From positions 1 to 25,307 of the IMG/VR virus record IMGVR_UViG_3300022874_000043: a stretch of DNA of 25,307 nucleotides. One strand, given 5' to 3'. Origin of the DNA: a virus. Every line of letters begins with the position of its first letter. Position 1 is the stretch's first letter. Below, piece by piece: positions 7,685 to 21,137 of this stretch. Position numbers and translations under genes: made by a program. The notes under the pieces were generated by a model. It was not told the origin of the DNA, did not search any database, and worked only from the letters and a program-made list of their open reading frames with translations.

Positions 7685-8830
7685 TTATGAATTAACTGTC
7701 ACGATCACGTTGCTTGAATGTACTGCTCCGGCCGCTTTTGCGGCTATCTTTATCAGCGGTGCTTTCCGATCATCCCTGTCTGCGGTTGACTGGTCCGCTA
7801 CCGGCAGCGAGTATACGTAATATCCGACATCAGTAATGTTCCGGCGCAGATCCGTTGGGTTACCAAACGTCTCTGCTGATGTCCATGATCCCGGGGCCAG
7901 GTATCCGCAGCTTACTGCCTGCTGGCATATCTTCTGGTATGCGCCTTTGAGCCCTGTTATCCCTGGCTCAGTCTGTGGGACCTTCGTATTCGTTTGGTAC
8001 AGGTAGTTAAACCCTGCGGTCTGCAGCGCGATCTTAAACCATAACTGCTGGTATATTTCATCAAAGAAACTGTTTTCTCCGGAACTAAATACAGCCGGCA
8101 GTCCTGCGATGTTCGGGTAAATGTCTACGCCCGCGGCTTCGCATGCGGCCAGTGCGGTCTGATCCAGCACCGAATCAGCGCTTATGGTAGCCAGCGTCTT
8201 TAGGTGCATGGTCTGAGAAGTGTTACTTCCAGCAAAGTCTGTAGACAGCGCGCGGCCGGCATATGCTGCGGCCATGTATCGTGCAGCGACTGCGCTGGTT
8301 GAAAAATACAGTGTACGGGTATGTGTTTTCAGCGCGGTTCTGATATCATCCAGCGCGCCGCTTGGTGCGTAGTCGGCTGCAGTTGTCGAGGCGTAAAACA
8401 GCACCTTATCGATTGTCTGCATGTATGCCGAAAGGTTGACCAGGTCAGCTTCTATCAATGCTTCGGTAACGACGACACCAAAGAAAAACACTTGTTCTGA
8501 TACTCTGGGGATCGCGGTCTCGACCTTTTCTGTTCCGGGGCCCGTCCTCGGCACGACTACCAGATATCCGTCTGCTGTCAGTATGTTTGGGTTCTGTGAG
8601 AATATTGCTACTGCCTGCAGGTAGGTTTCTGATGTGGATCCAAAGTCAGTTGCCACCTCAGAGGGGATTTTGTAAACCTTAAAATCTTCATCACCGTATG
8701 CAACAATCGGCTCTTCGTGAGTAAACAGTCCAATGGTATTAATGTTCGGCAGCGGCAGCCCGGTCGGGGTGCTTAGTACCGTCACGTTGATTACATTGGA
8801 TAAACTCAAATTCAAATTAACAGCTGTCAT
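7685..8830 (-). CDS. Contractile tail sheath protein (DUF3383-type)
   Basis: A 381-residue protein with the DUF3383 sheath pattern. The N-terminus is VINVTVLSTPTGLPLPNINT with FTHEEP; then comes VATDFGSTSETYLQAVAIFS, where D.G..s..y..A...F is the conserved sheath motif, and GYLVVVPR. The C-terminal half has ILAPGSWTSAE-like and RNITDVGYYVYSLPVADQST segments with a final IKIAAKAAGAVHSSNVIVTV. It forms the contracting outer tube, which makes this a myovirus-type tail. AGGAGG lies 9 bases before the ATG. The tube gene follows after 17 bases. Confidence 0.92.
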   Translation of the reverse strand: MTAVNLNLSLSNVINVTVLSTPTGLPLPNINTIGLFTHEEPIVAYGDEDFKVYKIPSEVATDFGSTSETYLQAVAIFSQNPNILTADGYLVVVPRTGPGTEKVETAIPRVSEQVFFFGVVVTEALIEADLVNLSAYMQTIDKVLFYASTTAADYAPSGALDDIRTALKTHTRTLYFSTSAVAARYMAAAYAGRALSTDFAGSNTSQTMHLKTLATISADSVLDQTALAACEAAGVDIYPNIAGLPAVFSSGENSFFDEIYQQLWFKIALQTAGFNYLYQTNTKVPQTEPGITGLKGAYQKICQQAVSCGYLAPGSWTSAETFGNPTDLRRNITDVGYYVYSLPVADQSTADRDDRKAPLIKIAAKAAGAVHSSNVIVTVNS

Positions 8831-16113: not shown

Positions 16114-17561
16114 TTCTTGGGTTCTCCTTGGGCTGGTTTTTTTTCTTTCGCTGTGGCTGGATTCTTTGGATTGCCTGCGTCGCCCGGCTTACCATCCTTT
16201 CCGGCATTATCGGGGTCTTTGTCGCCATCCTGCGTGGCCTGCTGCTCGATCAGTTCATCCTGCCGTGTCTGTGCTGGATAATCCTCAATGGTCGATGCTT
16301 CTACCTTGACCGGCATCAGGTCTCTGGTTTGCAGCGATTCGATCACTTCCGGGCCGGTCATGAGCTGGGTCTGGTGCAGCTGGATCATGCGGTTCTGGAA
16401 TGAGCTGTTTACTGTCTCTTCCTGGACAGCATCCATGACCCGGAGCGGTTTAAACTTAAACTGAAAATCTGGCACATAGCCGAATTCCATTCGGGCAGTG
16501 ACCCGCAGCAGTTCGTTCAATGGGTGGCGCATGCGGTCCCGGATCTCGGATTCAATCATTGCATTGTAATTCTCCAGGTCCTCTTGCCCGCTGTTAAACC
16601 CTGATGCAGACAGACCGAATAGTTTGGTCATTGGCATACGCAGGGCTGTTGCGATCCCGATCCGTATCTCGCGCAGCATTTCAGACAGGCCGCCGAATGT
16701 CATGGTTTTTTGGTCGTAGTCATCTTCCTTGTCCATGACCACCGCACTGTGATAGCTTTTTAGCTGGTTTGACATCTGGATTCTGCGGCGGATCAGCTCG
16801 GTTCCTTCGCTGGTGATGAGTGAATTGTTAAACCCGTTTATTTTCCATACGTCCACTTTCGCTTCATCGAGCAATTCGAATACAAGGTTGTTATGCTTCA
16901 GGTACATATTCAGCTCGCGGACCACGTGTTCGCATTCGCTCATACCCCATCCGGCCAGCTGCGGCCGCACAATCGCCGGGGCTGCTTTGCCGTTTATCGT
17001 AAGCACACGGCTGCGGTGTATCTTCACATTGTAGAACGTAAAAAATTCATTGATTCTGTTCGGTGCGGATAATTCCCAGCGGTCGGCCGGGTAAAATTCT
17101 ACCTCTGCGCCTTTTTTTATTGATTCGATTTTGAAAGGTTTCGCCGGGTCCTCATGTGCATTAATGATTGTGCCTGCGCCGCCAAACAAGCGCGCCCAGC
17201 ATACAGTCTCTTTAAAAACAGATAGCACGTTATCGCGCTGCAGGGATTCTTGCCATCCTTTTATATCTTCGCCATCAATTTCATCACTGGTGATCTCAAT
17301 GCCGCCGCGCAGTGCATCAGATACCGGCTGATCAATTAATGACTGGATCAGTCCGTGCTCCATGTAAAGATAATTTAAAACGATGCGCTGGATTGTAAGC
17401 GGGCTGTAACGGTTATTCGTGTATAAAGTTTCGAGATTATTAAGCTGCTGCGTGTTCCAGACGCTATGGGGAACCAGCTCTGATAAAGTGTTTTTAAATT
17501 CGGTAGGGATTTTTTTATCAGCGGGGATTGAGTTTTTTATGGTCCGTGTTTTCTTTTTCAA
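16110..17561 (-). CDS. Portal protein (DUF1073 / Acb1-like portal family)
   Basis: A 483-residue protein of the DUF1073 portal family. It has TIQRIVLNYLYMEHGLIQSL and DQPVSDALRGGIEITSDEID near the start, CWARLFGGAGTIINAHEDP (about 121-139), which is the conserved a...GGa.i motif, a wing with YHSAVVMDKEDDYDQ, then ATALRMPMTKLFGLSASGFN and SGQEDLENYNAMIESEIRDR in the stem/crown region. The last 45 residues are a disordered Pro/Gly/Lys tail. Its start is not an ATG: TTG at 17561, or CTG 6 bases earlier, with GAGG upstream. It forms the dodecameric DNA gate bound by the terminase. Confidence 0.88.
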   Translation of the reverse strand: MKKKTRTIKNSIPADKKIPTEFKNTLSELVPHSVWNTQQLNNLETLYTNNRYSPLTIQRIVLNYLYMEHGLIQSLIDQPVSDALRGGIEITSDEIDGEDIKGWQESLQRDNVLSVFKETVCWARLFGGAGTIINAHEDPAKPFKIESIKKGAEVEFYPADRWELSAPNRINEFFTFYNVKIHRSRVLTINGKAAPAIVRPQLAGWGMSECEHVVRELNMYLKHNNLVFELLDEAKVDVWKINGFNNSLITSEGTELIRRRIQMSNQLKSYHSAVVMDKEDDYDQKTMTFGGLSEMLREIRIGIATALRMPMTKLFGLSASGFNSGQEDLENYNAMIESEIRDRMRHPLNELLRVTARMEFGYVPDFQFKFKPLRVMDAVQEETVNSSFQNRMIQLHQTQLMTGPEVIESLQTRDLMPVKVEASTIEDYPAQTRQDELIEQQATQDGDKDPDNAGKDGKPGDAGNPKNPATAKEKKPAQGEPKK

Positions 17562-17601
17562 GGCCAGGAGTACCTCGCTTATGGATGAACCTTCTTTTTT
17601 T

Positions 17602-17631
17602 ATTAAACATTATTTAAAACACTTTTGTCAA
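17602..17631 (-). promoter_or_regulatory. Candidate promoter before the portal gene
   Basis: The 80-base gap between terminase and portal is the longest in the window. It holds TTGACA (17631-17626), an 18-base spacer and TTTAAT (17607-17602). Transcription would begin about 35 bases before the portal start codon. Hexamers are good but the region is very AT-rich, so chance is possible. Confidence 0.4.
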
Positions 17632-17641
17632 CAATAATCTT

Positions 17642-20626
17642 TTAACCGACATAGTCGAGTGTCTTGTTTGATTGTGATAATTCGGTGAGTCCCCATACGC
17701 AATTATGTACTAATATTCCGTTTGCAAAGTATTCAGGGATATCTTTCACTTCAAGGTTATAGACTGGGTTTCCGCTGTCTATTTGGTCGGTGGCGAGGTG
17801 GGCGTTTAGCTTCGTTATGCTTATTAACACAACGTCGTGAACAGAACCTTGCGATTTCAAGATATGATTTGAATTCGCTTCCGCACAAGATACATTTTTT
17901 TTCGTATTCTGCTTTTCTGTTTTTCCATGACAATTTTCCGAGTTTCTTATGCCATGCAATTCCGGCGGGTGATCCATGCCATTTTGATGCAAGGGGTCTG
18001 ATTTTATTTGCCCATGATCTTCGCTGCTCGGTGTATTTCTCTTTATGCTTTTGTGCGTGTTCTTTTTTAGTGAGGCATTCAAGGTTAACGATTGAATTAT
18101 TTTTTTTATTACCGTCGATATGGTGTATATCGTGTCCTTTAGGAATTTCTCCATGATGCCTTCGCCATACTTCCCTATGTTCTGTGTCTTTCCCTGTCCA
18201 GTTATATGTTCCCATGTCCCTATTATATCATATCCCCATACCACTGTGTCAAGTGAAATAAATCCTCGGTTGATTGTATAGATTGGATGGTTCGGCGTTG
18301 CTGTTAGTGTCGCCCCGTTTGAGAATGTCGCAGTGATAACTTTTGCATTTGGATTCGTAATCCCTGCGTTTAACACTTCGCGGGGACCATATCTTGTAAT
18401 AACATAATCCCCTGGGGATATACAAGATATCGGCATTTCCCCGTTAACAGTTTTTATCATAGTTCCTGCTGTGAAACAGGCATCCATCCTATCGGGGCTC
18501 TTTTCACCTGGGACATAGTTACACATTTGATCTTCAAGCTCGGGGAAACATCCTACGTGGTGTACCTTACAGTTATGCACTAAGATATTATTAGCAAAAT
18601 ATTCGTGACAATCAGCTACTTCAAGATTATATACATTTTCAATACTGCTTTTTTTTACGGTTTCTATTCCAGTAACTTGTGTTGCAAGGCGGCGAGCAGA
18701 ATCTAACCCTTGTTGCTCTTGTTTTAAATTTTCTCTTACATTCATCACATTGGTGAAACGTCTCTCTTCTTTTTTTCCACCATTCTTTATGCGAGATAGA
18801 ATTTTTCTTCCGAACTTCCGATGTCCCCAACGCAAGAGATCGTTCTTTAGTGTGTTTAAAAAAATGCTTCGTTGGTGTAATTGGAACAAGGTTTTCAATT
18901 TTATTATTGCTTGAATCCCCATCGATATGATGAATATGTATACCATCGTCGATTTTCCCGTTATAGTGTTCCCAAACACTTCTGTGCAAAAGCTCATTCC
19001 CTGACGACCTACCGGCTCTCCAGTACCCATCGATTTGTTTATAGTATCTTTTTTTATTAAACTCGACATATTCCCTTTTTGGCTGCCTTGTTTTCCATCT
19101 TTCCGTGGCTGCACAAGACTTACATCTAGCATTTTTTCTTGATACCCCTGTTTTACAATCGAGACATTTGTATTTTTTTCGCTTTTGCATATTTCATTAC
19201 CTCCTACAAGTATTATATCACTTATAGGAACAACAAGTCCAGCACTTTTAAAGATGTTTTTGTTAACTGTATAGATTGGATGGTTTCTTGTGCATTTTAA
19301 AGTATTCTTTCCTGCTTTTATTTCAATCGTTTCCTTAACCCCTGTTTTCCCAGACCATAATACTTTTTTTAGCCCTCTTCTTGTCCATACCCGTTCACCT
19401 ATAACAATTTCTTTTATTGGCTTTTTACAAAATTCAGCATGAATCATTGTTCCTTCGGCAACACACTGTTCATAAAGTGCGCTGATTGGTTCAGCTCTTG
19501 TCAGCTTGCCGCGGCTTGCACGTACTGCGCGATAGTTAACCGTGTTGTCTGTGTTGCGTATAACAGATTCTACCAGGTCGCCACCGTTATTTACCTCGCC
19601 GATTATTTTATCCGCAAAGTAATCGTGGTATAAATTGATCGCTGCGGCTGCCCATACATTCGGGGTGGACCGCATTGACCGATCGCGCATAACGTAAAAA
19701 TGTCGATCGATCCCCATCCCTGTTACAATGATTCCAGTTTCCGAGCTATCCTCTTCGCAAGTCACGGCCGGGTCTATTGAAACTACGATCCGGATCAGTT
19801 TCGGCGCGACCCTGACGCGGTATTTCTCGATTAGCGCCTGGTTCCACAGTGCGCCCTGGCGGTCCTCGAGTATTTCGCCGGACAGTTCCTGCCGGCCCAG
19901 CCGTGTGCCATCGTACTTGTTATAAATGCGCTCAATGAATTTTGCCGAAAGGTTGATCAGGTTGTCTTTTGTGCGGCCTCGGGTTACTACGGTATCCGGG
20001 TCCTTAACCAGACCACGGATGATCGGGATGGGTCGTGGCGTAGTGGTTACGATAACTTTCGGGTCAGGGCCTATCCTGAGCCCCATTTCCATGTTATCCC
20101 AAGTATCATCGGGGTACATATATTTGGCCAGTTCGTCTACCCAGGCCGTGTCGTGCTGCGGGCCGCGGAGCTGGCCTGGTTCGTCGCCGCTGTATATCGT
20201 GGCTACCGCCCCGTTGGGCCACACGATCCTGCGCTTGCTGGGCTGGTAGTCCGGCATAAACCATGGCGGGCTGCATTTGAGGATTGAGCTTTCGCCGATC
20301 TCGACCATCGTATCCCGGACATCGGCCTTACTCTGGCCAATCAGCGCGATGTACTTGCTGCCGGTCCTGGCTCGTTCTATGATGAATTCACTGCCGGTCC
20401 TGGTTTTGCCGTAACCCCGGCCGCTTAACAGTAGCCATACTGTCCATGCGACCTTTGGCGGGATCTGCTCTTTACGTGCCCAGAACTTCCAGTCATAGAT
20501 TAGTGCTTGGCATTCCTGGTCACTTAGATTTGCGAGGATCCTTGACCGCTCCGAGCTTGGCAGCGATGCCAGAGATCTGGCTGGCGAGTCGTTCTCTTGG
20601 GCTTGTCGTTTCAATGGGGCCGCCAT
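17642..20626 (-). CDS. Terminase large subunit precursor with two inteins
   Basis: A 994-residue precursor. Removing residues 388-685 and 717-975 leaves a 437-residue protein, the usual TerL size. ATPase motifs: Walker A-type SGRGYGKTRTG (about 68-78), Walker B AWVDE (161-165), coupling TTTP (194-197). Nuclease: Asp285 in SIDP, an acidic pair near 344-350, and the last conserved Asp residues in SPDRMDA (711-716). After splicing, the extein reads LYEQ-CKVHHVG and SPDRMDA-CVWGLTEL, a normal family match. It packages phage DNA into the head through the portal. The start overlaps the small subunit gene by 107 bases. Without splicing, the nuclease site would be broken, so splicing should be essential. 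Confidence 0.93.
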   Translation of the reverse strand: MAAPLKRQAQENDSPARSLASLPSSERSRILANLSDQECQALIYDWKFWARKEQIPPKVAWTVWLLLSGRGYGKTRTGSEFIIERARTGSKYIALIGQSKADVRDTMVEIGESSILKCSPPWFMPDYQPSKRRIVWPNGAVATIYSGDEPGQLRGPQHDTAWVDELAKYMYPDDTWDNMEMGLRIGPDPKVIVTTTPRPIPIIRGLVKDPDTVVTRGRTKDNLINLSAKFIERIYNKYDGTRLGRQELSGEILEDRQGALWNQALIEKYRVRVAPKLIRIVVSIDPAVTCEEDSSETGIIVTGMGIDRHFYVMRDRSMRSTPNVWAAAAINLYHDYFADKIIGEVNNGGDLVESVIRNTDNTVNYRAVRASRGKLTRAEPISALYEQCVAEGTMIHAEFCKKPIKEIVIGERVWTRRGLKKVLWSGKTGVKETIEIKAGKNTLKCTRNHPIYTVNKNIFKSAGLVVPISDIILVGGNEICKSEKNTNVSIVKQGYQEKMLDVSLVQPRKDGKQGSQKGNMSSLIKKDTINKSMGTGEPVGRQGMSFCTEVFGNTITGKSTMVYIFIISMGIQAIIKLKTLFQLHQRSIFLNTLKNDLLRWGHRKFGRKILSRIKNGGKKEERRFTNVMNVRENLKQEQQGLDSARRLATQVTGIETVKKSSIENVYNLEVADCHEYFANNILVHNCKVHHVGCFPELEDQMCNYVPGEKSPDRMDACFTAGTMIKTVNGEMPISCISPGDYVITRYGPREVLNAGITNPNAKVITATFSNGATLTATPNHPIYTINRGFISLDTVVWGYDIIGTWEHITGQGKTQNIGKYGEGIMEKFLKDTIYTISTVIKKIIQSLTLNASLKKNTHKSIKRNTPSSEDHGQIKSDPLHQNGMDHPPELHGIRNSENCHGKTEKQNTKKNVSCAEANSNHILKSQGSVHDVVLISITKLNAHLATDQIDSGNPVYNLEVKDIPEYFANGILVHNCVWGLTELSQSNKTLDYVG
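17757..18215 (-). CDS. HNH homing endonuclease nested out of frame in intein 2
   Basis: A 152-residue protein in the -1 frame relative to the terminase and wholly inside intein 2. The HNH core is HREVWRRHHGEIPKGHDIHH then IDGNKKNNSIVNLECLTKKE. It is followed by a Cys4 zinc-binding tail (KKCILCGSEFKSYLEIARFC, SRRC). Start at 18215: AGGG directly before ATG gives only a weak ribosome site, but a TATAAT ends 6 bases before the ATG. Its TAA stop is formed by the codons of the block F Tyr-Asn (VYNLEV). It would cut intein-free terminase genes and drive homing. No in-frame link to the intein exists. Confidence 0.88.
   Translation of the reverse strand: MGTYNWTGKDTEHREVWRRHHGEIPKGHDIHHIDGNKKNNSIVNLECLTKKEHAQKHKEKYTEQRRSWANKIRPLASKWHGSPAGIAWHKKLGKLSWKNRKAEYEKKCILCGSEFKSYLEIARFCSRRCVNKHNEAKRPPRHRPNRQRKPSL
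18222..18252 (-). promoter_or_regulatory. Candidate promoter for the nested HNH gene in intein 2
   Basis: TTGACA (18252-18247), a 19-base spacer and TATAAT (18227-18222) with an extended TGn before it. The ATG of the HNH ORF follows 6 bases after the -10, so a transcript would start at or near the start codon. The spacer is 2 bases longer than ideal. The same DNA codes for the end of the intein N-terminal block, so the match may be partly protein-driven. Confidence 0.45.
18639..19190 (-). CDS. HNH homing endonuclease nested out of frame in intein 1
   Basis: A 183-residue protein in the -1 frame relative to the terminase, inside intein 1. The N-terminus has a zinc finger (YKCLDCKTGVSRKNARCKSC). 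The HNH core is LLHRSVWEHYNGKIDDGIHI then HHIDGDSSNNKIENLVPITP. A Cys4 tail follows (HQCDECKRKFKTRATRVRFC, SPPC). It begins at an ATG with a perfect AGGAGG 9 bases upstream, itself coding Gly-Gly in the intein frame. The last dozen codons overlap the conserved start of the intein C-terminal splicing block. The second nested HNH has the same HNH-plus-Cys4 layout. Confidence 0.9.
   Translation of the reverse strand: MQKRKKYKCLDCKTGVSRKNARCKSCAATERWKTRQPKREYVEFNKKRYYKQIDGYWRAGRSSGNELLHRSVWEHYNGKIDDGIHIHHIDGDSSNNKIENLVPITPTKHFFKHTKERSLALGTSEVRKKNSISHKEWWKKRRETFHQCDECKRKFKTRATRVRFCSPPCNTSYWNRNRKKKQY
19200..19217 (-). promoter_or_regulatory. Start signals of the nested HNH gene in intein 1
   Basis: AGGAGG (19205-19200) lies 9 bases before the ATG at 19190 and is the best ribosome binding site in this gene region. 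Just upstream is TATAAT (19217-19212) with TG one base before it, an extended -10 form. The 10-mer TGATATAATA is identical before both nested HNH genes. No good -35 is seen here. Confidence 0.6.
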
Positions 20627-21137
20627 CCTTCCCGGTGATTTCGGTTTTGTCGGTAAACATTTTTAAGTGTCTGCCAAGTAATTCAAGCGCCCTGACCTTA
20701 TCATTCATCTTTACTTTTTTCGTGTATCCGATTTTTTCCTTTTCTTCCCCAGTGCCTTCATACAGTTCATTAACTTCAATCTGTGATATAGCATGTGCAA
20801 GGTCATCAGGGATATCAGTTAAATCTTTCATCATCCCCTGTTCCGTGAAGGCCCCGCGCACATCCATCATAGCAATTTTCATCAATTCTCTGACCACATC
20901 GTCGGCTTTTATGAGGGTGCGGTCTTCCTGTGAATGTATCTGTTTTACGATTTCATCCTTCACCTTTGCGATTCTTAATAAACAAGATGCCTGAACCTCA
21001 GCGTTTTTTGCGCTGTATCCCGCTCTTATCGCTGCATTTGTTCCGTGTTTGTCGATTAGATATTCAAGGCAGAATTGCTTCTGTTTGACGGTGAGTTTGG
21101 GGCTAGGTGATCGTTTTTCAGCTTTTTTATTCTTCAT
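20520..21137 (-). CDS. Terminase small subunit
   Basis: A 205-residue protein of the Terminase_2 family. The N-terminal DNA-binding part is LTVKQKQFCLEYLIDKHGTN then AAIRAGYSAKNAEVQASCLL, matching the conserved L..kq..F..eYl.d.n.t.AairAGYs.k.a. A central helical part with DDVVRELMKIAMMDVRGAF follows, and KVKMNDKVRALELLGRHLKM near the end is another family feature. It recognises the packaging site and recruits the large subunit. Its 3' end overlaps the large subunit gene by 107 bases in another frame. Confidence 0.92.
   Translation of the reverse strand: MKNKKAEKRSPSPKLTVKQKQFCLEYLIDKHGTNAAIRAGYSAKNAEVQASCLLRIAKVKDEIVKQIHSQEDRTLIKADDVVRELMKIAMMDVRGAFTEQGMMKDLTDIPDDLAHAISQIEVNELYEGTGEEKEKIGYTKKVKMNDKVRALELLGRHLKMFTDKTEITGKDGGPIETTSPRERLASQISGIAAKLGAVKDPRKSK

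Follow-up and report, generated by a model that had tools for sequence, protein, structure and literature searches.

The terminase large subunit gene of the IMG/VR virus record IMGVR_UViG_3300022874_000043 contains two inteins, and each of them carries an HNH endonuclease gene in the -1 frame relative to the terminase. The stretch analyzed, called the window here, comprises positions 1 to 25,307 of that record (25,307 nucleotides). The arrangement is probably a two-product mobile intein, in which a mini-intein hosts an independently translated homing HNH gene. Three lines of evidence carry this assignment. Complete splicing domains are encoded in the terminase frame with no endonuclease in that frame, the same nested layout recurs in relatives from phages and bacterial genome contigs, and selection in these relatives falls on the HNH frame within the HNH gene and on the terminase frame within the flanking splicing domain.

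Two inteins and two nested HNH genes in one terminase

The open reading frame (ORF) of the terminase lies on the minus strand and is divided as follows (aa, amino acids).

20626-17642, minus strand: terminase large subunit ORF, 994 codons (994 aa), stop-free
19466..20626, minus strand: N-extein of the terminase, 387 aa (Pfam Terminase_6N 1.7e-20, Terminase_6C 1.5e-6; intein-free homologues L013 and L014)
18572..19465, minus strand: intein 1, 298 aa, terminase residues 388-685, Cys1 to Asn298 followed by Cys+1 (HN/C junction; Pfam Intein_splicing 1.2e-13)
19211..19465, minus strand: N-terminal Hint half of intein 1, residues ~1-85, including the TxxH of block B (AlphaFold2 confidence mostly 80-97; matches gp41-1 and Mtu RecA intein structures)
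18572..18667, minus strand: C-terminal Hint half of intein 1, residues 267-298, ..VYNLEV..HEYFANNILVHN (sequence and AlphaFold2)
18479..18571, minus strand: middle extein, 31 aa, CKVHHVG..SPDRMDA (sequence; intein-free homologues)
17702..18478, minus strand: intein 2, 259 aa, terminase residues 717-975, Cys1 to Asn259 followed by Cys+1 (Pfam)
17642..17701, minus strand: C-extein of the terminase, 19 aa and stop (sequence)
18639..19190, minus strand: HNH1 endonuclease ORF in intein 1, 183 aa, -1 (= +2) frame relative to the terminase (Pfam HNH_3 3.8e-14)
17757..18215, minus strand: HNH2 endonuclease ORF in intein 2, 152 aa, -1 frame relative to the terminase (Pfam HNH_3 3.1e-18)
19200..19205, minus strand: ribosome-binding site AGGAGG, nine bases 5' of the HNH1 ATG
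19212..19217, minus strand: extended -10-like TATAAT with preceding TG (TG-A-TATAAT) upstream of HNH1, a candidate promoter of its own whose bases also encode Hint residues
18639..18667, minus strand: last ~10 codons of HNH1, overlapping the first strand of the C-terminal Hint block (modelled strand at intein residues 267-283)

Both insertions lie in a continuous host ORF and have a position-1 nucleophile, a TxxH motif in block B, a terminal Asn and a Cys at +1, which is the residue required by inteins of this type. A Pfam scan of the terminase frame detected terminase, Intein_splicing and Hint domains alone, with no endonuclease domain in this splicing frame. Neither intein thus has the in-frame endonuclease between Hint halves that characterizes a canonical full-length mobile intein. 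The AlphaFold2 model of intein 1 in the terminase frame is a confident two-half Hint domain with a disordered middle, and Foldseek matched it to several inteins with a probability of 1.00. The original prediction, made from the DNA letters of this window, had placed the splicing blocks of intein 1 in the terminase frame with no in-frame endonuclease; the Pfam results and the continuous ORF bear this out. Its figure of 437 residues for the spliced terminase is also the extein length computed with both inteins removed. Intein 2 with HNH2 has the same arrangement and was absent from that prediction.

Intein-free terminases of the same family exist (L013, 75% identical; L014, 57% identical). The residues at the two insertion points are Gly and Leu in these homologues, versus Cys in the window terminase. 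The guanine plus cytosine content of intein 1 is 35.6% compared to 54.7% for the N-extein, which fits acquisition of the element. A second contig (IMGVR_3300023297_000231; loci L003, L012 and L015) has an N-extein, HNH1 and HNH2 that are 100% identical to those of the window, and its terminase ORF is likewise uninterrupted.

The HNH1 ORF was found as predicted, with 183 residues at 18639-19190 in the -1 frame and AGGAGG at nine bases from its ATG, and its assignment to HNH_3 adds domain evidence. Two stops in its own frame directly precede the ATG. The HNH catalytic motif and zinc-binding Cys residues expected of HNH_3 are present. AlphaFold2 modelled HNH1 with a mean predicted local distance difference test (pLDDT) score of 86 and values >90 across most of residues 41-180. 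Its best match in the PDB is I-HmuI (1u3e; probability 1.00 with a modest E value of 2.3e-3), the HNH homing endonuclease of a group I intron, with 24% identity over ~118 aligned columns. I-HmuI is carried by an RNA intron, unlike HNH1. HNH1 and HNH2 are 31% identical to each other. Upstream of HNH2 (~18220-18257, minus strand) is a TTGACA and a TG-A-TATAAT separated by a 19-nucleotide spacer; with 6 nucleotides between the end of the -10 element and the ATG, transcription from this site would yield a leaderless mRNA.

Nested and free-standing relatives

Viral contigs, bacterial genome contigs and isolated phages were scanned to give 158 loci, and a profile built from the HNH proteins identified 170 HNH ORFs in them. 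An HNH ORF was scored as nested when it lay within a longer same-strand ORF, in another frame, that matched a Hint profile. By this definition 88 of the 170 count as nested within an intein ORF of terminase type (-1 frame, 77; +1 frame, 11), and another 75 are free-standing; the sample consists of matches to nested queries, and the nested proportion is not a population estimate. A Hint domain in the HNH's own frame, the sign of an in-frame fusion, was found in none of the 170. This lack of in-frame cases, not the nested proportion, is the telling number of the survey.

Host N-exteins matched Terminase_6N in 46 and Terminase_3 in 32 of the 71 scannable cases. The nested form occurs in bacterial genome contigs of several phyla and in three isolated phages, Tetrasphaera TJE1, Acinetobacter Highwayman and Rhodobacteraceae LS06-2018-MD07. 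The records of these three phages annotate the terminase alone at the locus, and the nested HNH genes are missing from them. Other isolated phages have the same HNH family as a separate gene adjoining terL, in the opposite orientation in Shemara. The free-standing terL-adjacent proteins (Pseudomonas PAE1, Lactobacillus CL2, Exiguobacterium EauM-23 and others) are ~33-47% identical to the nested ones; unlike these, they are encoded by a separate gene without an intein.

Since an open host frame is part of the definition of nesting, the appropriate comparison is with the free-standing HNH genes. Among 14,679 host-frame codons in 82 distinct nested HNH regions there are 0 stops, while stops make up 8.2% of codons in the third forward frame. 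An open alternative same-strand frame was found in 0 of 55 free-standing HNH genes, in which stops occupy 3.5% of the +1 frame and 9.4% of the +2 frame. These controls rule out a chance open frame.

The anatomy is conserved among the nested cases. The HNH gene usually stops just ahead of the VYNLxV strand, 12-26 codons short of the intein's final Asn. Both sets of catalytic residues are retained: 63-64 of 64 sequences keep the HNH and zinc-binding residues, and the intein has Cys1 in 45/45, the block-B His in 45/45 and the terminal Asn in all 44 rows having that column. In the HNH frame a stop is reached a median of 6 codons upstream of the first ATG, which indicates that initiation of the HNH is its own. 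Shine-Dalgarno (SD)-like motifs of ≥4 nucleotides precede 31 of 74 distinct nested HNH starts, versus 10.9 ± 2.8 in shuffled sequences. TATAAT with ≤1 mismatch occurs upstream of the HNH in 43 of 74, versus 23.9 ± 3.7 in shuffles; a scan for promoter-like sites upstream of the nested HNH genes showed no excess over shuffles. The HNH genes may have their own promoter, with the bases of the TATAAT doubling as Hint codons.

A quick tree of 128 HNH proteins, on which support is often weak, has nested and free-standing members interleaved, with HNH1 and HNH2 at different positions. Parsimony gives at least 19 changes between the two states, and the starred branches force just 2-3. The two nested frames need 2 changes; 8 of the 9 members in the +1 frame cluster, and one sits apart on a very long branch. 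With this weak support the tree gives no firm count of invasions, and it does not show which way evolution went.

Several other loci were recorded in these scans. Brevundimonas phage Poludnitsa carries, between terL and portal, an HNH gene that is missing from its annotation (L158:2893-3465). The +1 frame of an intein at L061:5339-7771 shows a weak and partial match to HNH, and its host is possibly not a terminase; a scan of this host ORF found no terminase domain. Query P0002 gave no match in the phage collection. Selenomonadales/Quinella contigs (L142:2474-6586, also L139 and L136) contain several tandem same-strand HNH ORFs of this family, 135-484 aa in length.

Selection in the two reading frames

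Selection was measured by comparing the amino acid changes in each frame to those expected when the same substitutions are placed at random while avoiding stops, using 17 pairs of relatives. Within the HNH region, the HNH frame has 734 changes compared to 1275.5 expected (observed/expected 0.58) and the host frame has 1284 compared to 1251.6 expected (1.03); the pairs share members, and these totals are not independent counts. The pattern is reversed in the N-terminal Hint region, where the host frame has 491 changes versus 784.9 expected (0.63) and the HNH frame has 819 versus 785.5 (1.04). The HNH-frame deficit appears in 16 of the 17 pairs, and the exception is a pair with just two substitutions. 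The check called for by the original prediction, namely which frame is constrained in homologues, identifies the HNH frame as the one under strong purifying selection. This result supports its proposal that the splicing domain and the endonuclease would be separate products of overlapping frames.

Constraint changes hands at the 3' end of the HNH gene. Over the last ten HNH codons the observed/expected ratio is 0.54 in the host frame and 0.82 in the HNH frame, and past the HNH stop the host frame stays constrained at 0.55 and then 0.22 (7-8 pairs with small counts in each case). This frame-specific constraint indicates that the long overlap is HNH coding laid over a spacer that need only be open, with a short stretch of true dual coding at the 3' end. 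The host-frame reading across the HNH gene is constrained merely to stay stop-free, and its amino acids drift freely. The dual coding claimed for the end of HNH1 therefore holds for the last ~10 codons and does not extend to most of the overlap.

Mechanism, alternatives and precedents

Mobile inteins are usually pictured as one polypeptide in which a splicing domain is fused to an endonuclease, and it has long been an open question how endonuclease genes come to enter splicing elements in the first place. In the two-product arrangement proposed here, the terminase frame would encode a mini-intein. This would be one continuous Hint domain with a long unstructured linker between its two halves, and it is expected to splice itself out and leave the terminase intact. 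The -1 frame would carry, exactly between the Hint halves, an HNH gene that has its own start and is of the same type as the free-standing homing endonucleases of phages. Read in the terminase frame, this gene would be no more than a spacer without stops. Its HNH product is expected to cleave terminase alleles that lack the intein, close to the insertion site, and recombination repair of the cut would copy in the entire intein, HNH gene included. The arrangement probably arose when terminase-adjacent HNH genes invaded mini-inteins sitting at HNH targets. The anatomy and its recurrence, both catalytic residue sets, the frame-specific selection, the separate starts and the intein-free alleles are established at the sequence level and argue for this mechanism.

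A broader proposal has about even chances of being correct. Out-of-frame HNH inteins would form a widespread and separate two-product class, in which terminase-adjacent HNH genes repeatedly invaded mini-inteins in both frames and never fused to them, and in which a single stretch of DNA would give rise to a homing and a splicing protein that evolve separately. The relatives provide a natural series in one host gene, with the same HNH family beside the terminase, inside an intein in one frame and inside an intein in the other. Because selection switches so sharply at the frame borders, the two-product model can be tested.

Some observations weigh against the two-product mechanism. That the intein splices, that the HNH is translated, that it cuts and homes, and which way evolution went are all predictions from sequence. 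The ribosome-binding site of HNH2 is weak, and just 31 of the 74 nested genes have an SD-like motif of ≥4 nucleotides. Selection was measured on relatives and not at the window locus itself, because the sole near copy of that locus is identical. Every identified nested host is a terminase, which is also compatible with a role for the HNH in packaging.

This last point leads to the main rival, in which the HNH protein works with the terminase to package DNA, a role proposed for HNH proteins of the HK97 gp74 type, and is nested for co-expression rather than acting as a homing enzyme. The idea was raised by the authors who described the brucellaphage intein (PMC4422536), and it is in line with nested hosts that are terminase large subunits and free-standing relatives that adjoin terL. 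However, it does not explain why one terminase would contain two inteins with two different HNH proteins (31% identical), why intein-free terminases of the same family lack a nested HNH in that gene, or why the HNH gene, in either of two frames, is placed exactly within an element that removes itself. I-HmuI, the top structural match, is also a homing enzyme. A packaging role in place of homing is judged unlikely, and the two views are not mutually exclusive (PMC10448857).

Three further explanations were rejected. The HNH could be made as part of the intein through a programmed -1 frameshift and so be an in-frame domain in effect, as the 77 of 88 nested genes in the -1 frame might suggest; this is very improbable given the 11 cases in the +1 frame and the enrichment of SD motifs at the starts, and the stops directly 5' of the HNH starts (two before HNH1, a median of 6 codons upstream overall) rule it out. 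A group I intron excised at the RNA level would be a natural carrier, since phage group I introns often contain HNH genes of this fold. The continuous ORF, the complete Hint motifs, the Hint fold and the lack of an Rfam intron match within 17400-20800 all speak against it, and its probability is close to negligible. Sequencing or assembly error, or decay of a former in-frame HNH intein, has a starting point in the in-frame HNH_3 inteins that do exist (PMC6293099), and an error that restores an in-frame HNH was one of two findings that the original prediction named as fatal to it. Error is rejected on the strength of the identical second contig and of the same layout in bacterial genome contigs and in the genomes of the three isolated phages. 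The host frame is free of stops in 82 of 82 distinct cases and selection acts on the HNH frame. This explanation as a whole is barely plausible.

The out-of-frame arrangement has a published precedent. An out-of-frame HNH in the intein of the large terminase was reported for all annotated brucellaphage genomes published by 2015 (PMC4422536), and the window inteins join this kind already glimpsed there. The likeness, an HNH ORF out of frame within a terminase intein, is one of description. The passage of that paper on the intein contains no survey beyond brucellaphages, no per-frame selection test and no second intein. The ShiLan domain, an insertion in a phage methylase, also has an out-of-frame zinc-finger HNH and is stop-free in the host frame (Arsenault, Gosselin, and Gogarten 2025, PMC11855218). 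It differs in having no splicing motifs and is not an intein, and its HNH has a GTG start with no detectable ribosome-binding site, whereas the window inteins have splicing motifs and the Hint fold, and their HNH genes are flanked by a complete Hint domain. The dCTP deaminase intein of cyanophage CL131 resembles the window inteins as a phage intein with a Hint domain and an HNH_3, and its self-excision was demonstrated in Escherichia coli (PMC6293099). Unlike those of the window, its HNH_3 is an in-frame inserted domain in the canonical layout. The original statement that known inteins carry their endonuclease in frame is correct for CL131; it does not hold for the brucellaphage intein as described in PMC4422536, for the 88 nested cases or for intein 2. 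Out-of-frame nesting is a distinct architecture and not the sole one for HNH inteins. The papers that could be searched appear to contain no description of how widely this architecture occurs, of its use of two frames, of the lack of in-frame fusions or of selection specific to one frame; a preprint on non-canonical actinophage inteins (10.1101/2025.01.02.630785), cited in the ShiLan paper, may already describe the layout.

Elsewhere in the window, a DUF3383 protein (7685-8830, minus strand) aligns solely to the C-terminal half of the family profile (219-493 of 493), with its first ~115 residues outside the alignment.

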